Below are positions 49,935 to 62,978 of a DNA stretch of 64,000 nt, piece after piece. The stretch is from an uncultured Proteiniphilum sp. (GTDB lineage Bacteria > Bacteroidota > Bacteroidia > Bacteroidales > Dysgonomonadaceae), in the NCBI GenBank assembly GCA_927407015.1, contig CAKMJT010000029.1:62001-126000 (forward strand), written 5' to 3'. The position numbers were made by a program, and so were the translations under genes. Each line of letters opens with the position of its first letter. Positions within the stretch are counted from its first letter, which is position 1. The notes below the pieces were generated by a model that searched no databases, was not told where the DNA came from, and was given only the letters and a program-made list of their open reading frames with translations.

Positions 49935-50300
49935 CTAATTATCTAATTTCAGGTTCTTCAGAACAGCGAGCAAGAGTTCGGCCGACAACCGGGTTTTATA
50001 ATCGGGATTGATATATTCAAAAGCAATTTTTCCGCTGGTGTCGGTAACAAAAACAGCGGGGACAGGCAAAAAGCCATCGTTTAATCCATCCGATTTTTCT
50101 GAAAGCATCCCGAAGAAATTTCCCGGTGCTTTAAATGCAATACCGATGGCTTTAATGAGTTCCCCATCAGCGTCGGAATAGAGGCTATACTGCAGGTGCT
50201 GATTTTCATCTGTAACCCTGAGGTTTTCGGGCGAATCGGGGCTGATGGCTATAATCTGGTAACCCGTGCGGTTGAAGATGAAACGACCTCTCCGGCAATA
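49935..50300 (-). pseudogene. N-terminally truncated peroxiredoxin-like (AhpC/TSA) protein
   Basis: The minus-strand frame encodes the C-terminal two thirds of a redoxin: GYQIIAISPDSPENL, SLYSDADGELIKAIGIAF, FLPVPAVFVTDTSGKIAFEY and the final helix. There is no start codon. The N-terminal part with the peroxidatic Cys loop is absent; only CRRGR-like residues remain at the junction next to the ATPase stop. About 60-70 residues appear lost. It directly follows the transporter ATPase at the end of the ergothioneine-type cluster, so it may once have been a member of it. Confidence 0.75.
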
Positions 50301-50304
50301 CGGG

Positions 50305-51033
50305 TTAAATATGTATAAATTCTTTTACCCATTTATTGACCGGTTCATGCTGAATATTCTCCGGCGTATCAAATTGTACGATTTCTCCTTTATTCATAAT
50401 GGCAACATGGGTTCCCAGCGTAAATGCTTCGTGTAAATCGTGGGTAACCATTATAAACGTGATTTTCATTTTGCGATGCATTTCCTTGATTTCATGTTGC
50501 AGGTTTCGGCGGGTAATGTTATCGAGAGCGCCAAACGGTTCGTCCATCAGCACAATTTCGGGTCGCGATGCAAGCGCCCGGGCAACTCCAACCCTTTGTT
50601 GCTGACCGCCGCTTAATTCAGAAGGAAAAGCATTTAACTGACGTTCATCAAAACCCATCATTTTTGCCAATTCACTCACCCGTTTTTCGATCGCCTGCTT
50701 TTCAACCGATGAAATGCGTAAAACAAAAGCGATATTCTGCCTTACGGTAAGGTGAGGAAAAAGACCACCTTGTTGAATGACATAACCTATTTTCCGGCGG
50801 AGTTGAATTTTATCCCAATTTTCCAGGTCTTTGTCCATCACTATAATCTTGCCCGAATCAATACCGGTCATCCCGTTCATCAGGCGCAACAACGTAGTTT
50901 TTCCACAACCGCTTGGGCCAATTATTGTGACAAAAGCCCCCTGTGAAATATCCAGCGAAACATTAATCAGCGCCTTGCTCTCCGGTTCGTAGGATTTGGT
51001 AACGTTTACTATTTCGATGACAGAATTGTTCAT
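50305..51033 (-). CDS. ABC transporter ATPase, EgtV/OpuCA-like
   Basis: This 242-residue ATPase has Walker A GPSGCGKTTLLRL (about 37-49), YVIQQGGLFPHLTV as Q-loop, LSGGQQQRVGVARALA as signature, VLMDEPFGALD as Walker B and VTHDLHEA. It lacks the CBS domains of classical OpuCA, as does the ergothioneine transporter ATPase EgtV (about the same length). It follows the permease-binding-protein fusion at 9 bp, so they form one importer. Substrate choice between ergothioneine/hercynine and other betaines rests on context. Confidence 0.85.
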   Translation of the reverse strand: MNNSVIEIVNVTKSYEPESKALINVSLDISQGAFVTIIGPSGCGKTTLLRLMNGMTGIDSGKIIVMDKDLENWDKIQLRRKIGYVIQQGGLFPHLTVRQNIAFVLRISSVEKQAIEKRVSELAKMMGFDERQLNAFPSELSGGQQQRVGVARALASRPEIVLMDEPFGALDNITRRNLQHEIKEMHRKMKITFIMVTHDLHEAFTLGTHVAIMNKGEIVQFDTPENIQHEPVNKWVKEFIHI

Positions 51034-51042
51034 TCTCCGGTT

Positions 51043-52599
51043 TTATTTCAATAATTTGTGTTGTTTCAAAAAATTAGCTGCGACTTCGTTGGGTGATTTT
51101 TTTTCAATTTCAACCTCATAATTGAGCTGAAGCATTGCTGAATCGCTGATGGAATTTTCAAGGCGCTCAAACAATCCTTTTAATTCAGGATATTGTTGCA
51201 GGGTTTCATTTCGGATAACAATACCTGCCTGATAAGCCGGGAAAAATTGTTTGTCATCTTTCAATACCCGGAGATTCATTTGCCTGATTCGCGAATCGGT
51301 TGAAAACGCATTGATAACATCGACTGTGTGGTTTTCCAACGCCTGAAATTTCAGGTTGATATCAAGTTCCACCTCGTTTTTAAAATTGAAAGGATAGACC
51401 TTATTCAGTCCGGTAAAACCGTCTTCGCGCTCAAAAAAATCGAATTCAGCGCCAAAAACAAATTGGTTGCTTTGAACTGCCAATTCCGAAAAAGTATTGA
51501 TATTTTGGTTTTGTGCCACAGGTTCAGGAAGCGCAAGGGTAAACGTGTTGTTAAATCCAAGCCTGCAAGCCCATTCCAGATTGAATTGTTCGGCATACAT
51601 TCTTTTTAACGCCGCATACAAACTATCCGGATTATTCATTGGTGGCTCTTTCAAAACAAACAGCCACGCTGTTCCGGTGTATTCAGGATAAATATCAATT
51701 TCTCCTTTCAACATGGCTGGATGGATATTGGAAGTACCGCCGCCGATGCCAAATTTCCGGATGACCTGAATATCGGTATTGTTTTCCACAAGCAGTGATA
51801 TGATTTCGCCTAAAATATATTGCTCGGCAGTAGGTTTTGTGGCAACTACAATTTTTTTTCCGGACGAATTGCCTGGTTTTGGCAGGAGCATGAAAATGAA
51901 CAACAACGCAAGAATTCCCAACCCGAAATATCTCAGGAAACGATTTTTTTTATCCGGTTTTCTTGCTTTTGTTTTCAGTGACTTTTCGAGAGCCCCGATT
52001 CCCAAATCGGCTACCAGCGCTAACAAAGCCACCGCGATTGAGCCGACAAGAATGAGCGAAGAGTTGTTGGTGTTGATTCCGCGATAAATGGCCTGTCCCA
52101 AACCACCGGCCCCGATAAAAGAGGCCAACCCGGCCAGTGCAATTGTCATGACTACCATTGTGCGGAATCCACTTACAATGGTTGGAAAGGCCAGTGGCCA
52201 GCGTACAATTGAAAAAACCTGCCAGGGCGTGGCGCCCATTCCTTTTGCGGCATCGAGCAGGAGCGGATCAACTTCGTCCAACCCTGTGTATGTATTTCTG
52301 ATAACAGGCAGCAAGCCATAAATTACCAACACTACTAATGCATTGCCATAACCGATTCCAATTAAGGGGATGAATAATCCAAACATGGCGATTGACGGGA
52401 TGGTGTAAAGGAAATTGACCGTCCCCAAAACAATTTGTCTCCATTTTTTAGATTGCAGGATGGCAATTCCGGTTGAAATACCAATAACAGAGATGATAAT
52501 AATGGCGGTGAGGCTAAGCAGAATGTGCTGAACGAGCAGTTCGTAAAGGTAATCGCGGCGGTCGGCGATGGTTGTAAAAATATCGTTCAGCAAAGTCAT
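51043..52599 (-). CDS. Fused permease and substrate-binding protein, EgtU-like betaine importer
   Basis: I use ATG 52599, 11 bp after the methyltransferase stop; an upstream GTG overlaps that gene. The 518-residue protein combines a BPD-type permease (about 1-215, with helices LLSLTAIIIISVIGISTGIAI and the coupling loop DAAKGMGATPWQVFSIV) and an OpuAC-like binding domain. The latter starts at KKIVVATKPTAEQYILGEII and contains GEIDIYPEYTGTAW. This fusion is the layout of EgtU, the pneumococcal ergothioneine importer, and of several choline/carnitine systems. Its place right behind a histidine methyltransferase favours hercynine or ergothioneine, but binding residues cannot be judged here. Confidence 0.85.
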   Translation of the reverse strand: MTLLNDIFTTIADRRDYLYELLVQHILLSLTAIIIISVIGISTGIAILQSKKWRQIVLGTVNFLYTIPSIAMFGLFIPLIGIGYGNALVVLVIYGLLPVIRNTYTGLDEVDPLLLDAAKGMGATPWQVFSIVRWPLAFPTIVSGFRTMVVMTIALAGLASFIGAGGLGQAIYRGINTNNSSLILVGSIAVALLALVADLGIGALEKSLKTKARKPDKKNRFLRYFGLGILALLFIFMLLPKPGNSSGKKIVVATKPTAEQYILGEIISLLVENNTDIQVIRKFGIGGGTSNIHPAMLKGEIDIYPEYTGTAWLFVLKEPPMNNPDSLYAALKRMYAEQFNLEWACRLGFNNTFTLALPEPVAQNQNINTFSELAVQSNQFVFGAEFDFFEREDGFTGLNKVYPFNFKNEVELDINLKFQALENHTVDVINAFSTDSRIRQMNLRVLKDDKQFFPAYQAGIVIRNETLQQYPELKGLFERLENSISDSAMLQLNYEVEIEKKSPNEVAANFLKQHKLLK

Positions 52600-52610
52600 A
52601 TTATTTTTTT

Positions 52611-53573
52611 CTATATTTTCTCCCACAGCGAATCCACAAAGTAATTCCGTTGGTCGGTGAAATTTTGAACCACTTTAAAATGGTGGTATAAAGCCAGTTC
52701 CTCAATAGTTTTAATGTCATACTTTCGTGATCGCTCCATAAAGATGGCCTCCCACTTTGTAAAACGGAATGTTTTCTCGAGCGTTCCAATCTGAACAGTT
52801 TGGTCAGAATTTGAAATCAGGAAACTTTTTACCTCGCCGCTTCGCGGGTTGTAGGTAGTTTGATGTTCGAACTTTTGGATATCAAAATTGGCATCCAGTT
52901 CACGGTTCAGGCGAACAAGGTGGTTCAGGTTGAAACGGCTCGTGTGACCGTGCGGGTCGTTGTAGGCCTCCATAATTATGGCAGGCGATTTTTTCAGGTC
53001 GAAACCAATCAAAACTTTATCCCCAACATTTGAATACGCTGATAGCCGGCTCAAAAATTCAGTTGTTTCATCAACAGAAAAATTCCCGATGTTCGACCCC
53101 AGAAAAAGGATGATTTTTTGAATGGAAGCATGTCCCTGCAGATTCTTCAGTTTTTGAAAATAATCGCCGGTTTGGGCTTCAACTTGTAAATTTGGCAACT
53201 CTTTTTTCAGGCTTTGTACCAGTTCGTGGTTGGCTTTTGCACTGATATCAACGGGAGTGTATTGAAAATGAATGCCCTCATCAACCAGGTGCTTTAGCAG
53301 GATTTTGGTTTTCAACCCGTCGCCCGAGCCCAGTTCAACCAGATTAAACAGCTTCTTTTCCGGGCAAATTGCCTGTGTGATTTCCTCTTTTTGATTTGAA
53401 AATATCTCATGCTCACAATCAGTCAGGTAATATTCAGGCATATTCATGATTTCCTGAAAAATGGCGCTTCCGGCATCGTCGTAAAAATATTTCGACAAAA
53501 GATATTTGGGGTTCGAGGACAGTCCTTTTAACGTGTCGGTTGCCAGTTCGGAAAGAAGTACTTGTTGTTCCAT
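52611..53573 (-). CDS. eanA: L-histidine N-alpha-methyltransferase (EanA/EgtD family)
   Basis: This 320-residue protein matches the EgtD/EanA length and pattern. KYFYDDAGSAIFQEIMNMPEYY (about 28-49) is the N-terminal histidine-side signature with tyrosines. VELGSGDGLKTKILL is the SAM-binding glycine loop, PVDIS the acidic end of strand 2, and FLGSNIGNF and LLIGFDLKK-like LIGFDLKKSP complete the Rossmann core. It trimethylates histidine to hercynine. EanA is the name used for the version paired with an EanB rhodanese; here such a rhodanese is two genes away in the same operon. The start is ATG 53573, 34 bp after the reductase stop. Confidence 0.88.
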   Translation of the reverse strand: MEQQVLLSELATDTLKGLSSNPKYLLSKYFYDDAGSAIFQEIMNMPEYYLTDCEHEIFSNQKEEITQAICPEKKLFNLVELGSGDGLKTKILLKHLVDEGIHFQYTPVDISAKANHELVQSLKKELPNLQVEAQTGDYFQKLKNLQGHASIQKIILFLGSNIGNFSVDETTEFLSRLSAYSNVGDKVLIGFDLKKSPAIIMEAYNDPHGHTSRFNLNHLVRLNRELDANFDIQKFEHQTTYNPRSGEVKSFLISNSDQTVQIGTLEKTFRFTKWEAIFMERSRKYDIKTIEELALYHHFKVVQNFTDQRNYFVDSLWEKI

Positions 53574-53607
53574 ATTTTTTTCTGATGGAAATTTTTGCTT
53601 GTTCAGT

Positions 53608-54984
53608 CTAATCTTTCAATTCCTGAAGGCCTTCCAGCATGGTTGGAATTAACTCTGAAACAGTGGGATGAGGTAACACGGAATCCATCAACACTTTGTA
53701 AGAAGCACCGGCGTACATCATGCCCAGAAAAACAGAAATAATTTCATCGCCACCGGTTCCCAACACACATGCGCCAAGTATTTTATCTGTTTCGGCATCA
53801 ACAATCACCTGCATAAAACCGGTCGTTTCCCCTTTTTCGCGGGCGCGGGCCACATTGCTCATTTTCAGGAATCCAACTTTCAATTTTTTCCCGGTTTTCC
53901 GGGCTTGTTCCAGCGTCAATCCCGCCCTTCCCAGCGGAGGATCGGTAAATAAAGAATAGGTTAATATCCGGTCTGAAACTTTCCGTGTTTTTCCTCCAAA
54001 CAAGTTATCAGCTACAATTTCGTAGTCATTGTAAGCAGTATGTGTGAAAGCGCCTTTTCCGTTGCAATCGCCCAATGCATAAATTCCGGGAACATTTGTT
54101 TCCAGGGTTTCATTTACTTCAATAAACCCGCGTTCGTTGGTTTTTACGCCGGCAATCTCAAGGTTTAAGGTGTCAGTGTTGGGTGCCCGGCCAACTGCGA
54201 GAAGCAGGTGTGAACCGGAAATTTCGGGTGCTCCACTTGTGCAATCCACTTTTACCGTCACACCCCCTGAAGCATTATTCTTACCCGAAAGGCAATTAGC
54301 ATTCAGTCGAAATTCGATTCCTTCTTTTTCCAGAAATTGCCGGATGGCATCGCTTACATCTTTGTCTTCGCGTCCGATAATGGTTGCGTTACGTTCAATA
54401 ATGGTTACTTTACTTCCAAAGCGCCTGAACATCTGACCAAATTCAAGTCCGATATAGCTTCCGCCAACAATGATAAGATGTTCGGGAATTTCTTTCAGTT
54501 CCAGAATGGATTGATTGTCGAGATAATTAACCTGTTTAAAACTTTCTGGGACAAAAGCTCTTCCGCCTACGTTGATGAATAATTGATCAGCGGTGATTTC
54601 GTCCTTGTTAACCTTAACTGTTTTATCACCGGAAAATGCAGCTTCGCCTTCGTAAAAGGTTATATTTTTATTGTTGTTTAAACCATCTAAAATGCCATTC
54701 ACCGATTTCGAAATCATCGCATCTTTCCGTTCTTTCACTTTTTCCAGATTCACTTTCGTCCCCGCCGGAATATCAACGCCCAGTTCTTTTCCGTGCATCG
54801 AATCCCAAACCCGCCGGGCGCTGGCCACATACGTTTTTGTGGGCGTGCAGCCTACGTTCAGGCAGGTGCCGCCAACATGTTCTTTTTCGATAAAAGCCAC
54901 TTTTTTGCCTTCAGAAGCCAGTTTAAAAGCCAGGGGTGTCCCGGCTTGGCCTGAGCCGATAATAATTGCATCAAACTTTTTCAC
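53608..54984 (-). CDS. FAD-dependent pyridine nucleotide-disulfide oxidoreductase
   Basis: A GTG start overlaps the eanB stop (GTGA). The 458-residue protein has the FAD motif IIIGSGQAGTPLA, the redox disulfide GGTCLNVGCTPTKT (CxxxxC), an NAD(P) motif IIVGGSYIGLEFGQ, a second FAD motif YALGDCNGKGAF and the dimer-interface HPTVSELIPTML. The last holds the histidine-glutamate pair. It resembles mercuric or dihydrolipoamide reductases, without an HMA domain or the C-terminal MerA cysteines. In this operon it could reduce polysulfide or ergothioneine disulfide, or supply persulfide to EanB; this is inference from position only. Confidence 0.9.
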   Translation of the reverse strand: MKKFDAIIIGSGQAGTPLAFKLASEGKKVAFIEKEHVGGTCLNVGCTPTKTYVASARRVWDSMHGKELGVDIPAGTKVNLEKVKERKDAMISKSVNGILDGLNNNKNITFYEGEAAFSGDKTVKVNKDEITADQLFINVGGRAFVPESFKQVNYLDNQSILELKEIPEHLIIVGGSYIGLEFGQMFRRFGSKVTIIERNATIIGREDKDVSDAIRQFLEKEGIEFRLNANCLSGKNNASGGVTVKVDCTSGAPEISGSHLLLAVGRAPNTDTLNLEIAGVKTNERGFIEVNETLETNVPGIYALGDCNGKGAFTHTAYNDYEIVADNLFGGKTRKVSDRILTYSLFTDPPLGRAGLTLEQARKTGKKLKVGFLKMSNVARAREKGETTGFMQVIVDAETDKILGACVLGTGGDEIISVFLGMMYAGASYKVLMDSVLPHPTVSELIPTMLEGLQELKD

Positions 54985-56294
54985 GATATTTTTTTTTGAT
55001 TTCTATTTTCAAATTCCCGAGGCACTCCGGTTTCAAACGGGTTTTCCGGGTCGTTGCTCCATTCAAACCAACCGCCATCATACACCGAAACACGCGGCCA
55101 TCCCATCAGCCACGCATTAAACCAGGCTTCGCTGCCCCGCCAACCTGTACCACAGTAAAATGCAAGATGTTTGTCGGGCGTTATTCCGTTGTTCATCCAA
55201 ATTTCCTCCGTTTCGTGAAACTCACGGGTGGTATGGTCCACATTGCGGTAGTTTTCCATGTGATACGCATCCGAGCCACAATCGGCAAACACGGCGCCGG
55301 GGATACGGCCTTTGGCCTCGATGTAGTTGTAACCGCTCACTTCCCCAATATACTCCGGGTAACTGCGCACACAAACCAGTTCGGCATTTGGCGAAGCAAT
55401 CATTTCTTTGGCTTCGGGCGTGTCCACTGCCAATTCGGGCTTTTGCGGAATGGATACGCCAAAATCGGCAGCCTGTTTTTTGGGCTCATCGGAAAACGAA
55501 ATTTCAAAACCGGCGTCCTGCCACGACTGAAAACCACCGTTTAATATCCTTACGTCTTTCACCCCGGCATACAACATGATGAATGCATTGCGGATGGCGC
55601 CAATGTCGCCGGCAGCACTGCCCGGAAATTCGTCGTCGTTGTCAGGGTCCATGTATTTGCCGTATAAAACCACGGTTGTATCGGCAGTGATTCCGTGCGC
55701 TAAGAGCGCTTTCTCCAATTCTTCGGGCGAACGGCGGTTCCATGTTTCCGGCGCCTCCAAAGCCAACGTATCCATATCAATGGCACCCGGAATGTGACCA
55801 CTCAAATAAGCATCACGGTTGCGATAATGGGAGTGGACTAGTACAAAATTATCGTTATCATATTCAGCAGGTTTTCTGCCCGAAATCAATTCGTTTACCC
55901 ATTCTGCTGAGACCAGGTTTTTGTAGCGTTCGAGTTTTTGCATGGGCAAGCTAGGATTGACAACCCATTCATCCGCAAAATGATGGTAAACAGAAACCTT
56001 TTTATAGCCCGATTTTAATAACCGTTCGGCTACTTCTTGCGTTTCTTCGGGCGAATATCCGTAAATGACAATTTCATTTTCCGGCAGGATGTTTTTGTGC
56101 CGCACGATTTCAATCCAGTCGATGTATTTTAACCATTTTGCAGGCAGACTTTTTGCTCCCGCAATGTGGCCGCCGCGGGATTCATTTCTCAACTGCCATC
56201 CGTTGTAGGCCTCCACCGGTCGGACATCCACTATTTTTACGCCTTCTTTTTTTAGATGCCTTAATAGTTCTGCAGTTGTTTTTTCGATTACCAT
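54981..56294 (-). CDS. eanB: EanB-like multi-rhodanese sulfurtransferase (anaerobic ergothioneine synthase)
   Basis: The 437-residue protein has three rhodanese-like units. The first two have no cysteine in the active loop (IVIYGYSPEE; VVLYGKYMDP), while the last has FYCGTGWRGSEAW with Cys381. The protein has only three cysteines, C308, C339 and C381, with spacings of 31 and 42. These are the spacings I recall for Cys339, Cys370 and Cys412 of the Chlorobium limicola EanB. Tyr322 and Tyr380 fall where its active-site tyrosines Y353 and Y411 lie. EanB inserts polysulfide sulfur into hercynine without oxygen. The DUF427 fragment overlaps its start by 7 bp. Confidence 0.85.
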   Translation of the reverse strand: MVIEKTTAELLRHLKKEGVKIVDVRPVEAYNGWQLRNESRGGHIAGAKSLPAKWLKYIDWIEIVRHKNILPENEIVIYGYSPEETQEVAERLLKSGYKKVSVYHHFADEWVVNPSLPMQKLERYKNLVSAEWVNELISGRKPAEYDNDNFVLVHSHYRNRDAYLSGHIPGAIDMDTLALEAPETWNRRSPEELEKALLAHGITADTTVVLYGKYMDPDNDDEFPGSAAGDIGAIRNAFIMLYAGVKDVRILNGGFQSWQDAGFEISFSDEPKKQAADFGVSIPQKPELAVDTPEAKEMIASPNAELVCVRSYPEYIGEVSGYNYIEAKGRIPGAVFADCGSDAYHMENYRNVDHTTREFHETEEIWMNNGITPDKHLAFYCGTGWRGSEAWFNAWLMGWPRVSVYDGGWFEWSNDPENPFETGVPREFENRNQKKIS

Positions 56295-56410
56295 AAAAAA
56301 TCTTTTAAAAACTCTTTTTTTACCGATTCAATCGGAAAATAAGCATTTCCCTCAACGTTTACGATGTCGTTGCTTTCGGCAATGACTTTTCCGTTCCATA
56401 TTGCTTTCAT
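56288..56410 (-). pseudogene. Truncated DUF427 protein
   Basis: ATG 56410 begins MKAIWNGKVIAES, then VNVEGNAYFPIESVKKEFLK, the N-terminal half of a DUF427 domain. It stops after 40 residues inside the start region of eanB (ATGGTAA). Full DUF427 proteins are about 90 residues. The C-terminal half, with the WYYPEP-like block, is absent. It may be a relic, or a short leader translated ahead of eanB. The stop is real in this sequence. Confidence 0.7.
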
Positions 56411-56484
56411 CTTTTGTTCATTTTAATCAGGGTCAATTTACTCATTAAACTGTTTTCGTCTGTAAATTGTTTTCGTCTGTTTTA

Positions 56485-57063
56485 TCAAATAAGCTGGTTC
56501 AAAGCCACGTCAATAAAATCGGATAACTGGCTTTTGTCCATTGTTTTGTTGGCCACCGAAATTCCCTGCATCACACCAAGTAAAAAACTGGCTTGTTTTT
56601 CAACTTCCGTATGAGCCGGAATTTCATTTTTTTCGATTGCATTTTTTAATACCCGGAGAAACATATTACGGATAAAATCATAATACAGATTTATTTCCTT
56701 GGCGATATCCGGGTCTTTTTCGCCCAATTCACCGGCAGTATTTACCACCAGGCAACCCCTTCTGTCATCGTTGCCGTGACGGACAATCGTTGCATTTTTA
56801 AAAAAAATTTCAAGTTCGGCCAAACCCGCGCCTTCCTGTAATAAAGGTTGAAACCTGTTTATGATAACAAACTCGCGGTATTTGCGTAAAACGTTTATAA
56901 ACAGGTTTTTTTTATTTTTAAACGATGCATACATGGAAAACTGGTTGATGCCCATTTCTTTTTCGAGCAAACGCACCGATGTTCCCTCGTAACCATGAAC
57001 CCAGAACACATTCATGGCTTTCTCCAACACCAAATCATCATCGTATGTTTTATTTCGCGGCAT
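56485..57063 (-). CDS. TetR/AcrR family transcriptional regulator
   Basis: This 192-residue protein has a TetR-type N-terminal HTH: VLEKAMNVFWVHGYEGTSV, then LLEKEMGINQFSMYASFKNK. The C-terminal ligand domain contains RRGCLVVNTAGELG. It is the first gene of the minus-strand cluster and lies directly behind a well-formed promoter. It probably senses a small molecule or thiol stress and controls the cluster, perhaps by autorepression. The CLVVN loop has a cysteine (about residue 94) in a ligand-domain position. Confidence 0.9.
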   Translation of the reverse strand: MPRNKTYDDDLVLEKAMNVFWVHGYEGTSVRLLEKEMGINQFSMYASFKNKKNLFINVLRKYREFVIINRFQPLLQEGAGLAELEIFFKNATIVRHGNDDRRGCLVVNTAGELGEKDPDIAKEINLYYDFIRNMFLRVLKNAIEKNEIPAHTEVEKQASFLLGVMQGISVANKTMDKSQLSDFIDVALNQLI

Positions 57064-57082: not shown

Positions 57083-57113
57083 CAAAACTAAGCAATTGCT
57101 TTGAAATATCAAA
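57083..57113 (-). promoter_or_regulatory. Consensus promoter of the tetR-eanB-eanA-transporter cluster
   Basis: On the minus strand, TTTG (57110-57113) is followed after 19 bp by TAGTTTTG (57083-57090). This fits the Bacteroidota consensus TTTG-N19-TAnnTTTG. The -7 box ends 19 bp before the tetR ATG. It is the best promoter match in the window. Confidence 0.75.
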
Positions 57114-57362: not shown

Positions 57363-58571
57363 ATGATGCGGCAGGAAGAAATAGCTTTCGTGATAGATGC
57401 ACAGCGTGAAACTTTTTCGAAACGGGATCCCGGTTTCCTCCGGGATGCGTTATCCGAAATACCTGTTGCAGATTCTTTTGCCACAATAATAACGGGAATA
57501 CGTCGGTGTGGAAAAAGCACCTTGCTTCTGCAATTGCTTCGCCGGGATTATCAGGATGCCATATATCTCAATTTCGATGATATACGTCTGTCCGGTTTTG
57601 AAACAGCAGACCTTGTACGACTTCACAGGGAGATAGGAAAGAGAGAAATAAAAGTACTTTTCTTTGATGAAATACAGATTGTCAAAGGATGGGAAACTTA
57701 TATCAATCAACTATTGCGCGAAGGATATAAGGTATTTATAACAGGTTCCAACGCTTCCATGCTTAGTAGGGAATTGGGAACACATTTAACCGGCAGGTAT
57801 CTGCCTATGGAATTGTTTCCATTCTCTTACCTGGAGTTTATCCGGTTTAAAGCACTGAATAACGGGGAAAACGCCATAGTGAATTATCTGAAAGACGGGG
57901 GAATGCCCGAATATGTTAAAACCGGTGCATCGGTTGTCCTGAATACGTTGGTGGACGATATATTGATGCGAGATATCGCTATCAGGCATAATATCCGTGA
58001 TGTAATCTCATTGAGACAATTAACAGCATACCTGATAACCAATATAGGGAATCTCGTTTCTGCCAGCAAACTCGTCGGAATGTTTGGCATAAAATCACCT
58101 GCTACTTTTCTGGAATATTTTTCATTTCTGAAAGATGCATATTTACTTGAATTTATCCCTATATTCAGTTACTCATTGAAGGTACAGGCACGGAATCCTA
58201 AAAAGGTATATCTGATCGATTTGGGGATCTATACGGAAAATGCCGTATCGACAAGCGAGAATATGGGTAAACGTTTAGAGAATCTGGTATTTTTGCATTT
58301 ACGTCGGAAATACAGGCAAATCTTCTATTATAAGGGTCATGGTGCATGTGATTTCGTCACGATGGAAAAAAACAGGGTAAAAGAAGCCGTACAGGTATGC
58401 CTGACCATCGACGATGAGAATTTTGAAAGGGAATACAACGGGTTACTCGAAGCCATGCGAGATCTCGGTATCAAGGATGGAAGTATCGTAACCCTCAATC
58501 AAAGTGATACTTTTGAGAAAGAGGGTATGACAATCAAAATGGTACCTGCTCATCTATTTCTTCAAGAATAA
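57363..58571 (+). CDS. AAA family ATPase with DUF4143 domain
   Basis: The 402-residue protein has Walker A GIRRCGKSTLLLQ (about 45-57), Walker B VLFFDEIQ, TGSNASMLS (sensor 1) and the family block HLTGRYLPMELFPFSYLEF. A C-terminal DUF4143 region with KVYLIDLGIYT and ENLVFLHLRRKY follows. It belongs to the AAA_14/DUF4143 group, abundant in anaerobes; its role is unknown. An ATG also follows one codon later. The gene stands alone between the tetR cluster and the decayed glycerate genes. Confidence 0.9.
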   Translation: MMRQEEIAFVIDAQRETFSKRDPGFLRDALSEIPVADSFATIITGIRRCGKSTLLLQLLRRDYQDAIYLNFDDIRLSGFETADLVRLHREIGKREIKVLFFDEIQIVKGWETYINQLLREGYKVFITGSNASMLSRELGTHLTGRYLPMELFPFSYLEFIRFKALNNGENAIVNYLKDGGMPEYVKTGASVVLNTLVDDILMRDIAIRHNIRDVISLRQLTAYLITNIGNLVSASKLVGMFGIKSPATFLEYFSFLKDAYLLEFIPIFSYSLKVQARNPKKVYLIDLGIYTENAVSTSENMGKRLENLVFLHLRRKYRQIFYYKGHGACDFVTMEKNRVKEAVQVCLTIDDENFEREYNGLLEAMRDLGIKDGSIVTLNQSDTFEKEGMTIKMVPAHLFLQE

Positions 58572-58666: not shown

Positions 58667-59361
58667 TCACTTATCTTCTATCACAACTACGACCATATCC
58701 ATTACATTCGTCCGTGTGTTTCCGGTGATAATATGGCCACCGGTTTGTTGAAAAAAAATGGTAAGAATTGTAATTTTGGAGAAAAACCCGGGGATCGATA
58801 TTTTTCTTCCCTGCAGTAGCTGTCGTTTCATTATCAACCACGGCTCCGGCAGCATCGGTCGGTCCATCTGTACCATCTGTTCCTGCACATAAGATGGTGA
58901 TGTGTTTTTCGTGATCAATTTTAATCGAGCGTGGTACCTTCCGGAAAATCAGCCATCAGGGCTGATGCACCGCCCGATATCAGGCAGACCACCAAATCAT
59001 CTTCAACGGCTTGGCGGGCAATGTCAAGCATTTCCCGTGTCTCCTTCACACCTTCGGCATCCGGTATCGGATGTCCGGCTTCGGTAAGTTTCAGATATTT
59101 TAAATTTGTTTCGTGCCCGTATTTGGTAACAACGTGTCCTCCTGTTATTTTGTCGCCTAAAATTCGTTCGGTTTCCTTCGCCATTAAAGCGGCTGCTTTT
59201 CCGGCTGCCAAAACGTAAATATGCCTGAATCGGGATAACGGGTATGATTTACCGGCAATTTGCAGTACATCACCCCTCCATTTTATTTGTGTTTGAATCA
59301 ACTTTTCAGGCAAAACACTTTCAACTCCGGCGAGAAATATTTCTTCAGCTTTCTTTCTCAT
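58667..59361 (-). pseudogene. Glycerate 2-kinase (MOFRL/DUF4147 type) remnant
   Basis: From 59361 the frame encodes the N-terminal part: VESVLPEKLI, IYVLAAGKAAALMA, GGHVVTKYGHET and LISGGASALMADFPEGTTLD. Then the frame stops. From about 58914 a second frame resumes with HITILCAGTDGTDGPTDAAGA, the C-terminal MOFRL block, and a third frame after an eight-T run gives QQTGGHIITGNTRTNVMD to the end. About 180-200 residues between the halves are missing. Full-length enzymes are about 430. It is 9 bp from the gntP remnant, so a glycerate-use operon decayed here. Confidence 0.85.
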
Positions 59362-59370
59362 CTCATCTTA

Positions 59371-60136
59371 TTACAACATAAAAAATGAAGCCAGCCATAC
59401 ACACAGAAACGTAACGATTCCCATCACGATGGTGGCTGTAGAATAGACTTTTAAGGTGGTATTAGAGTTGATTCCGGAAAATCGCGAAATCACCCAGAAA
59501 TAAGAATCATTGGCGTGAGACACCATCATGGAGCCGGCACCCATCGAAATCATTGCCAGGAGTTTTCCGGTTTCGGAATCCAATCCCAGTGCAGGTAACA
59601 TTGGTACATTGAATTGATGCTTTTCATCGCCTTGTTTTTCAATAAAAACAGCGATAAAAGTGTACCAATCAGCAGGGCAATAATAGGTTGCCCAATAAAC
59701 GCCAGTCCTTTCAATACAACATTGCCTTCGGGCACTTTCATTACCGCGAGTAGAGAGCCAATGGCTATAAGAATAAGCGGGAATCGCAAAAAATGGTCGA
59801 TCCTACGACAAATCCCGTAATGCCCATTGCCGAAGCGGCTTTACCGTGTCCTGTTTTCGACAAAATATAATTAGCGATGCTTATGGCACCGCCTGTTTTT
59901 TCCAGCACCACGGCAATAATTGCCCCGAAAATAATCAGAAACCCGATGGATGCCATGGTACTTCCAAATCCCTCTTTCAGAATTTCGACCACATTTTTAT
60001 CGGGGAGGGTAATCATGGCTAACAACAGGGCGACGATAAACAGCGAAGCAAACGCGTTTAGTTTCGTGACAGAAGTGAGTATCACGATAAGCACGATGCT
60101 CAGCAGAACCAGGAGAGAAATTGTAACAATACTCAT
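59371..60136 (-). pseudogene. GntP-family gluconate/glycerate permease remnant
   Basis: Three overlapping frames carry GntP pieces. The N-terminus (from 60136) runs to GITGFVVGSTIFCDS. The middle (PLILIAIGSLLAVMKVP, FIGQPIIALLIGTLLSLFLL) is in a second frame. The C-terminus (MLPALGLDSETGKLLAMISM, SHANDSYFWVISRFSG, VTFLCVWLASFFML) is in a third. Joins after STIFCDS and after NKAMKSINSM each omit about 100 residues expected in GntP (about 440 total). The operon partner is the glycerate kinase remnant. Confidence 0.85.
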
Positions 60137-61334: not shown

Positions 61335-62978
61335 TTAGTATTGAGCGATCAATTCGTTTATTTTATCCATCAGCTCCTGGCGGGGTATACCGGATTGTTC
61401 ACTCATCATTTTGATGGTAGCGATGGGAAGAATCACTTTGGCCATCGGGATGTTCAGTACTGAAAATTTGGGATTGAATGCTATCAGGTCGTCCTTCAAC
61501 CCGGGAAATTGCTGTAGCAGCGTTTTTAATTTGGTATCACCCGAAAGGGTCAATTTTCGGGGACTTCCGTTTGTTGCGATACCCTCGTCGCCTGTTTCTA
61601 CATTGTTACCGGTTTTGAGGGTATACCCGGTTTCATCGTTTGTTTTTGTTGCTTCGTGCACTTCAGCCTGTTCATGATAGCCGTCTTTATCTGCTTTCTC
61701 CGTGCCCTAGGATAGCAGGCGTTGTTCCCCCTCGAGCTGGCGGATATGGGTGCAATCCTGCATCATCTCCATCACCCCGCGGAAGTTACCCTGATCGTCT
61801 CTCACCGCCACATAGACGATGTAGATAAAGAGGCCGGGCTTGTTGATCCAGAACTCGGCCTTGCTCTGTTCTCCACTGCGGAATTTCTCAATGATCTCCT
61901 CCACCAGATGGACACTTTTGGGGGGATGGCAGTTGCGCACCTCGCGCCCGATCACTCCCTTGCTTCTTGGAAAGACCCGGTGTTTGGTATCGGTGTAGAA
62001 CTTTACCAGCTCGTTTTCATCCACGAAAGAGATATCTACCGGCATATGCCGGTAAAGCAGGTTGATCTGTTCCAGCGTCAGCTTACCGTGGGCCACATCC
62101 AGCACCTGATCCGGTTTGTCGCTCTTTGTCTCATGCCCGTATTTGGCAAGCAGGGCAACCAGATCCTGCATAAAGTCGCCCTGATCCGCCGGTTGATCGG
62201 CCGCCTTTTCCGGTTTCTACTGCGCTGGCCTCCCGATAGCTACCTGTTCGACGCCAAAGAAACCGATTTCGCGGTCGCCCGACTTCAACTGCTCCATCTT
62301 GTCGGCGGAGATCAGTTTCAGGGAGGTAGGATAGAGAATCATCTCCTCCTTCTCCATCAGGTCGCGCAAGTCGACAGCCATCTCCCGGTAGGTATCGAGG
62401 AAGGTTGCCCTGTCTACCGGCTCGCTTTGCAACTGCTCCCAGGCCTTGTTCATCTCGTCGCGGATGTAATCGTCATACACTCACATGGTGGTGGTGGGAC
62501 GGTCGAAACCTTCCCGCTCCAGTGCCGAGTAGAGTTGATTCTGTTTGCGACTGAAATGCACCTTATAGGGCAATATCTGCTCCATCAGCTCCAGCCATTG
62601 ATTCAGTATAAAAGGCTTTTGGGCGAGGGCATCACCCTGCTGCAGCAATTCCTTCATCCGGCTATTCTCCCGCCGGTATGTGTCAATGGTATGACCCTCG
62701 GGCAGTTCTACCTCATCCGTATCCATCAGCCCTTCAAAGACTTCGAGCATCCCCCTGACATCCTCGTTGCGACACTCATCCGGATCTTCATCCTTGAGCA
62801 GCTGCTCCGCCGCGGCAAACTCGGCTGCCGAGATCTTGCCGACCTCCATTTTCATCCGGGTTCTTGCCTCCTCAAGCGGTAGAAGTCCGTTGTCGTACTG
62901 CCGTTTGATCTCCAGCATCCGTCTCAGCTTATCCTGATCGAGGCTGGCAAATATGCGATTGGTTTACTGTTCTTCCAT
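61335..62978 (-). pseudogene. DUF438/hemerythrin/PAS/DUF1858 sensor with four in-frame stops
   Basis: A single frame from ATG 62978 to 61335 (547 codons) spells a complete protein: DUF438 (about 10-155), a hemerythrin-like region (about 160-250), a PAS domain (about 280-420, with PRSKGVIGREVRNCHPPKSV) and DUF1858 (about 475-545). It is broken by TAA at 62964-62966 (codon 5), TGA at 62481-62483 (166, where a Trp is expected), TAG at 62217-62219 (254) and TAG at 61707-61709 (424). No indel is needed to join the pieces. Confidence 0.85.

Follow-up and report, generated by a model that had tools for sequence, protein, structure and literature searches.

A candidate operon for oxygen-independent synthesis and uptake of ergothioneine in an uncultured Proteiniphilum

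The closest described system for oxygen-free synthesis of ergothioneine (ET) is the EanA-EanB pair of Chlorobium limicola (Clim_1148-1149), the two genes being adjacent by their locus tags (PMC6282198). In a Bacillus study, ET was still formed by an EanB with 38% and a Bacteroidales EanA with 49% identity to their Chlorobium counterparts (PMC11767532). As for uptake, the Helicobacter pylori transporter imports ET (PMC12918743), and EgtU of Streptococcus pneumoniae is a fusion of a permease with a substrate-binding domain (PMC9732360). The role of ET in oxygen-free cells has been raised as a question (PMC9516567). Here we analyzed a gene cluster at positions 49935 to 57063 of a 64,000-nucleotide stretch of DNA (the window; positions 62,001 to 126,000 of contig CAKMJT010000029.1) from an uncultured Proteiniphilum sp. 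of the Bacteroidales, the genome of which comprises 3.18 Mb in 63 contigs. The reading that we favor, and hold to be fairly probable, is that of an ET operon that both makes and imports ET.

All six genes of the cluster were confirmed on the minus strand, in the order tetR, eanB, disulfide reductase, eanA, egtU and egtV, in agreement with the single minus-strand unit proposed by a first-pass annotation of this DNA, and the Pfam families suited each gene. At the level of sequence, the predicted enzyme families, the catalytic and substrate residues, the gene order and its recurrence could all be shown. Only the reductase and, by a narrow margin, the methyltransferase passed their NCBIfam cutoffs; the remaining genes fitted general families below the cutoff.

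The putative eanB (positions 54981 to 56294, minus strand) encodes a rhodanese-family protein of 437 amino acids, a predicted polysulfide-dependent ET synthase, with three Rhodanese stretches by Pfam. It scored 717 bits against the structure of C. limicola EanB (PDB 6ktv), with 301 of 423 residues identical (71%) in a gapless alignment. Residues Y353, C412 and R417 of the C. limicola enzyme, the roles of which are given in PMC10903977, correspond to Y322, C381 and R386 of the window protein. All 80 named EanB loci, which our genome scan retained from 306 confirmed stretches, have these three residues. The nearest of these loci, L019, is from a Draconibacterium metagenome-assembled genome and has a 96% identical EanB. 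Escherichia coli YnjE is homologous over most of the length and has the CGTGWR loop, but it is only 39% identical to the window protein and lacks a 15-residue stretch (216 to 230) that is common to the window protein and C. limicola EanB.

We then placed the rhodanese by phylogeny. In a tree of 88 rows (the 80 named loci, the window and 7 of 17 further loci of the phylum), the window protein fell in a 55-row group (support, 96/89) with that of the Chlorobiaceae locus L090 and its neighbors L004 and L005. In a 27-row tree, C. limicola EanB itself joined L090 at 100/100. A weakly supported group of 15 rows (86/68) contained these two and the window protein, and YnjE lay far outside on a long branch. 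Thus, the protein is not placed away from EanB but groups with the Chlorobiaceae and C. limicola enzymes. Nine EanB loci of Salinimicrobium had no EanA-like match within 12.7 kb (L031) or about 21 kb (L033, L034, L036, L038, L039, L040, L048 and L049); the methyltransferase may lie elsewhere in these genomes, or EanB may do something else there.

The gene assigned to eanA (positions 52611 to 53573, minus strand) encodes a predicted histidine N-alpha-methyltransferase of the eanA/egtD family with 320 amino acids, which matched PF10017 with 328 bits and passed the EgtD equivalog TIGR03438 narrowly (291.2 bits for a cutoff of 290.9). Mycobacterium EgtD (PDB 4uy6) is identical to it at 95 of 274 positions, and all eight checked residues of the histidine pocket named in PMC8593015 (Y39, F47, Y56, N166, Y206, T213, E282 and S284) were kept; the window enzyme would act on histidine. 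A tree of 46 of 62 rows, from which rows of 250 amino acids or less had been left out beforehand, split the EanB-adjacent methyltransferases into two groups at 100/99 and shows EanB standing beside two separate clades of predicted methyltransferases; EgtD grouped with the Chlorobium type, though with a long branch that the program flagged. Position 252 of EgtD was occupied by S or N in 32 of 32 rows of the window type and by M in 28 of 28 rows of the Chlorobium type.

Oxygen-free ET synthesis by the predicted EanA and EanB, as the first-pass annotation had read the pair, is strongly supported by the identity to C. limicola EanB, the EgtD model and the histidine pocket. Since the enzymes of PMC11767532 gave ET at 38% and 49% identity to the Chlorobium ones, activity of the window enzymes is likely. 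With the same catalytic residues, the two-step pathway would be expected to be that of C. limicola, to which the window adds genes for a reductase and an importer.

The importer is encoded by an egtU-like gene (positions 51043 to 52626, minus strand; 527 amino acids from a GTG), predicted to be a fusion of a permease (PF00528) and a substrate-binding domain (PF04069), and by an egtV-like gene (positions 50305 to 51033, minus strand) for an ABC ATPase of 242 amino acids (PF00005), the best NCBIfam model of which was TIGR01186 proV (256.8 bits, under the cutoff of 326.6). The nearest solved chain for the fusion protein was PDB 8dp6 (309 bits), annotated as an osmoprotection protein in the structure table and presumably H. 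pylori EgtU; pneumococcal EgtUC entries reached 166 to 177 bits. The binding domain (residues 252 to 527) was 54% identical to 8dp6 and 35% identical to pneumococcal EgtUC, and 8dp6 had the same letter as the window at 12 of 14 pocket positions, differing at 244 (S/T) and 341 (Y/F). These comparisons assign the window importer to the H. pylori type. The ligand would be ET, and uptake of ET or of a precursor is probable. In H. pylori, the transporter imports ET from the host (PMC12918743), whereas the window genes lie with synthesis genes.

To see how far this pairing recurs, the neighborhoods of EanB homologues were surveyed, a step that the first-pass annotation had suggested. The EanA type was assigned by identity, with 45% or more defining the window type: 34 of the named loci had the window type, 26 had the Chlorobium type, and 20 had none within 3 kb downstream. 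Usable loci were those with at least 1.5 kb beyond EanA (29 of the window type and 18 of the Chlorobium type); this rule dropped L019, L020, L044, L051 and L058 (window type) and eight loci of the Chlorobium type, where contigs end early. EgtU was carried by 5 of the 80 named loci, and the pairing did recur: among the usable loci, EgtU followed eanA in 5 of 29 where EanA was of the window type and in none of 18 where it was of the Chlorobium type. The full order eanB-reductase-eanA-egtU-egtV was found in one other locus, L059. The order was eanB-eanA-egtU-egtV in L024 and L052 and, apart from a short frame that parts eanB from eanA, in L026 as well; two genes separated eanA from egtU in L021. 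No EgtU match was found across 21 kb of the Chlorobiaceae locus L090. Loci of the cultured relatives Tangfeifania diversioriginum (L032), Thermophagus xiamenensis (L023) and Sunxiuqinia indica (L069) had eanB-eanA but lacked EgtUV across the 21 kb covered in each.

EgtU was rare in whole genomes. At 1e-60, the only hit among 395 sampled Bacteroidota genomes was the window's own, and the 101 genomes of relatives gave two (its own and G421); a profile search of 393 Bacteroidales genomes found 5, own included. Three of these five (the own genome, G671 and G774) had EgtU beside eanB-eanA, G671 and G774 probably being the same genomes as those of L021 and L052; in G824 EanB was on another contig, and G512 had EgtU and no EanB. 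EanB was thus present in 4 of the 5 EgtU-bearing Bacteroidales, compared to 14 of 104 sampled Bacteroidales (own included), 8 of 101 relatives' genomes and 18 of 395 sampled Bacteroidota genomes.

Findings on the enzymes, the linkage, the accessory genes and the binding pocket weigh against an operon that makes and imports ET. Y353, C412 and R417 are also present in E. coli YnjE; those residues alone therefore do not prove EanB activity, and we dropped them as proof. Met252 of EgtD, which has a role in the specificity of that enzyme, is Ser (Ser250) in the window EanA, which falls in a different clade from Chlorobiaceae EanA (L090; Clim_1148 itself was no row). EgtU was absent from most usable EanB loci, namely, from 24 of 29 with window-type EanA and from all 18 others. 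In G421, a genome 77% complete, a fragment of eanA at the edge of a contig adjoined an EgtU of 94% identity, with no EanB match in that genome. Moreover, the EgtU bearers did not cluster in the EanB tree: their distribution took 6 changes, of which at least 4 were forced, and all 500 shuffles were as low. We thus claim no single gain on that tree; the scatter fits repeated loss or gain.

The FAD (flavin adenine dinucleotide)-dependent disulfide reductase (458 amino acids, positions 53608 to 54984, minus strand) has the redox motif GGTCLNVGC and a C-terminal HPTVSE, and scored 647 bits against the equivalog NF004992 (class I FAD disulfide reductase, PRK06370; cutoff, 629). It adjoins eanB in 4 of the 80 named loci, and these four reductases formed one group with the window copy (92/89). 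The family is, however, a general one, found at 1e-120 in 24 of 395 sampled Bacteroidota genomes, own included, and six of seven other reductase genomes had no eanB nearby (surroundings L154 to L157 and L159 to L161); the sole one with eanB near, at about 2.6 kb, was G151 (L156). An ET-specific reductase was not upheld on these counts. The redox recycling that the first-pass annotation had assigned to the flavoprotein found nothing in its favor beyond linkage, and this role is a guess, as its substrate would be.

The TetR-family regulator (192 amino acids, positions 56485 to 57063, minus strand; PF00440 and PF16925) would regulate the cluster. Relatives of 57 to 74% identity were present in L022, L042 and L056, in a search that covered the flanks of eanB loci only, and they are thus a lead and not a test. 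At 1e-30, no TetR match was found in the other 100 of the 101 relatives' genomes, and L019 matched only the last 35 residues.

The pocket of the binding domain was compared at the positions of pneumococcal EgtU (PDB 7txl) given in PMC9732360. The window kept K242, T296 and R379, which are contacts there, as well as T275, N339 and Y443; it did not keep I243, G244, T274, F293, Y337, Y341, E375 and Y419. The replacements include G244 to T, F293 to Y, Y337 to F and E375 to D, all at specificity residues, and also Y341 to F and Y419 to F. A pneumococcal-type EgtU, which we had expected, was rejected on account of the Y, F and T in place of Phe293, Tyr337 and Gly244. Of the ET uptake proposed in the first pass, the kinship to an EgtU held, with 8dp6 as the nearest chain, and the pneumococcal residues for ET specificity did not, leaving uptake by a putative EgtUV as probable. 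According to PMC9732360, key determinants are missing from other EgtU subclusters, and some transporters of this cluster help H. pylori to take up ET, with significantly lower affinity.

The same pocket also speaks for a general transporter of quaternary ammonium compounds. In that case EanA and EanB would make ET, but the substrate of EgtUV would be glycine betaine, choline or carnitine, taken up as an osmoprotectant, for instance, and the genes would be neighbors either through a shared link to betaines or by chance. Tyr and Phe at 293 and 337 are the arrangement that PMC9732360 gives for the aromatic cage of the glycine-betaine protein ProX. The Pfam family of the domain is OpuAC, and its best NCBIfam model was OsmF, far under the cutoff. 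Distant relatives stand away from eanB (L171 and L172) or by a histidine-degradation-like pair (L120). Near relatives, in contrast (those of at least 63% identity in the binding domain and the 94% copy of G421), were all beside eanA in the genomes searched, and the six EanB-linked binding domains formed one clade (100/98). The nearest chain is 8dp6, presumably EgtU of H. pylori, whose transporter imports ET (PMC12918743), and the contacts K242, T275, T296 and R379 are kept, though also in some relatives not linked to eanB. We regard such an importer as unlikely, if worth keeping in mind.

Alternatively, the main ligand could be hercynine, scavenged from elsewhere and finished by EanB, so that the transporter feeds the sulfur step. 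The egtU gene adjoins eanA in the same operon as eanB, and S. aureus EgtU, which showed no hercynine binding, was grouped with the pneumococcal type (PMC9732360), the imidazole-side residues of which differ from those of the window. However, the relative in H. pylori has been described to import ET itself, and the cluster should make its own hercynine; we consider this alternative improbable. An ET importer accompanying ET synthesis thus remains the reading that we favor.

Relatives of EgtUV away from eanB (L171:3567-4676 and L172:8847-10025) were observed beside a porin-like outer-membrane gene, named by eye. In Acetoanaerobium noterae (L120:1215-6552), the EgtU relative is split into a permease and a binding protein and lies 3' of a histidine ammonia-lyase gene and a urocanase-like gene (the latter by eye). 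An assignment of this lyase as an ergothionase was not supported (398 bits for histidine ammonia-lyase versus 242 for ergothionase).

The coordinates bore out the tight packing noted in the first pass, with overlaps or gaps of up to about 35 bp and a longer gap after tetR: 190 bp separate tetR from eanB, eanB and the reductase gene overlap by 4 nucleotides, and the gaps are 34 bp between reductase and eanA and 9 bp between egtU and egtV. The eanA and egtU genes overlap by 16 nucleotides from the GTG or are 11 bp apart from an ATG at 52599, which is the likely start of egtU because the starts in L026 and L108 suggest so. The consensus promoter claimed for the unit was present as a match to TTTG-N19-TAGTTTTG just 5' of tetR (positions 57083 to 57113, minus strand), a type that we take to be the Bacteroidota promoter consensus. 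It was the single occurrence of TTTG-N18-21-TANNTTTG in the window, where 1.32 matches are expected by chance on both strands; the weight of the match thus lies in its position and not in its existence. Scans for sigma-70-type promoters and terminators gave no more hits than in shuffles.

Two remnants not mentioned in the first pass lie in the cluster. An N-terminal piece of a DUF427 protein (40 amino acids, positions 56288 to 56410, minus strand; PF04248, 3.9e-07, positions 1 to 41 of 93) has its stop overlapping the start codon of eanB. Intact copies of 94 to 95 amino acids adjoin eanB in L020, L021, L024, L026 and L059, and the family was near eanB or eanA in 29 of the 80 named loci, L083 among them. 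The family, small and without a known function, appears to be associated with the ean genes. After egtV comes a C-terminal peroxiredoxin piece without its N-terminal half (113 amino acids, positions 49935 to 50276, minus strand; PF00578 positions 55 to 122 of 124), which accounts for the lower coordinate of the first-pass annotation. It is 69 to 75% identical to the C-terminal parts of intact genes for 200 to 203 amino acids in L023, L024 and L042. In L042, the intact peroxiredoxin gene lies directly 3' of a tetR that is 57% identical to that of the window; in L022, the sequence after a tetR of 74% identity holds, as judged by eye, an AhpD-like gene and then the start of a similar peroxiredoxin gene. 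The core genes of the window thus sit between a tetR and a peroxiredoxin tail that adjoin elsewhere, which suggests an insertion of the core at this place.

These remnants could also mean that the cluster is a decaying island, partly dead, with broken flanking genes and an operon maybe no longer expressed or used. Upstream of the cluster (58667 to 60136), a glycerate-kinase-like frame measures 146 amino acids compared to 437 in L019 (by eye), and the short TetR match in L019 points the same way. Yet tetR and all five core genes have their full length and no internal stop, the promoter match precedes tetR, and the core proteins or pieces of them are 88 to 97% identical in L019 and L108. Decay thus appears very unlikely to us. 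The same upstream region also holds a short gluconate-permease-like frame (123 amino acids, named by eye), and an ATPase-like gene (57363 to 58571, plus strand) lies between the glycerate-kinase-like frame and tetR.

Other genes recurred around eanB. Within 7 kb, a Pfam-less protein (e.g., L067:12635-13492), a fusion of Rieske and glutamate-synthase-like parts, and an AhpC/TSA peroxiredoxin were each seen in 17 of 81 loci, and a Rieske protein with a thiamine-diphosphate enzyme was near eanB in 6 of the 81; stretches with such recurrent neighbors are L022:12276-14820, L026:7415-10028 and L021:16978-20542. The genome of the window had only a 37% partial match to the Rieske and glutamate-synthase fusion. 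Nine of the 81 loci had a gene for a LysE-type translocator, a candidate exporter, in the 3 kb upstream of eanB (L022:8364-8975; L027:9017-9625).

In the operon that we propose, EanA would add three methyl groups to histidine to give hercynine, and EanB would load sulfane sulfur from polysulfide on Cys381 and transfer it to the hercynine imidazole, giving ET without oxygen. EgtU and EgtV would carry ET, or hercynine, from the periplasm to the cytoplasm, recapturing leakage and taking up what neighbors release. The flavoprotein may keep a low-molecular-weight disulfide or persulfide of the pathway reduced with NAD(P)H, and TetR, together with the promoter 5' of tetR, would control the unit.

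The genome of the window also encodes OvoA (702 amino acids; L124:715-2823; G000 contig C5:103268-104410), a predicted 5-histidylcysteine sulfoxide synthase with a methyltransferase domain that scored 680 and 283 bits over cutoffs of 400 and 170. Hence, an oxygen-dependent thiohistidine route, to ovothiol, may exist there as well. The best match for an aerobic EgtB was this same OvoA, and EgtB was rejected. The first-pass annotation knew of no described cluster joining EanAB, an EgtUV-type importer and this flavoprotein, and we likewise found no description of eanAB with an EgtU-type importer in the literature searched, which did not include the founding EanB and H. pylori EgtUV papers.

A bolder and only tentative extension, which we hold to be rather unlikely, is a self-contained ET economy in anaerobic Bacteroidales. 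EanB would act as one unit with EanA enzymes of a separate clade and with EgtU proteins of a lineage dedicated to it, so that cells could make, share and recapture ET or hercynine, the flavoprotein reducing ET polysulfides or the disulfide. On this view, the EanA clade with Ser for Met252 and the importer with its shifted pocket would both handle one thiohistidine, which may differ slightly from ET. If the proposed operon is what it appears to be, the coupling of oxygen-free synthesis to uptake would mean that ET is worth recovering in such cells, and the cluster would offer a compact and testable gene set. Importers related to H. pylori EgtU would then not be scavengers only but could accompany synthesis.

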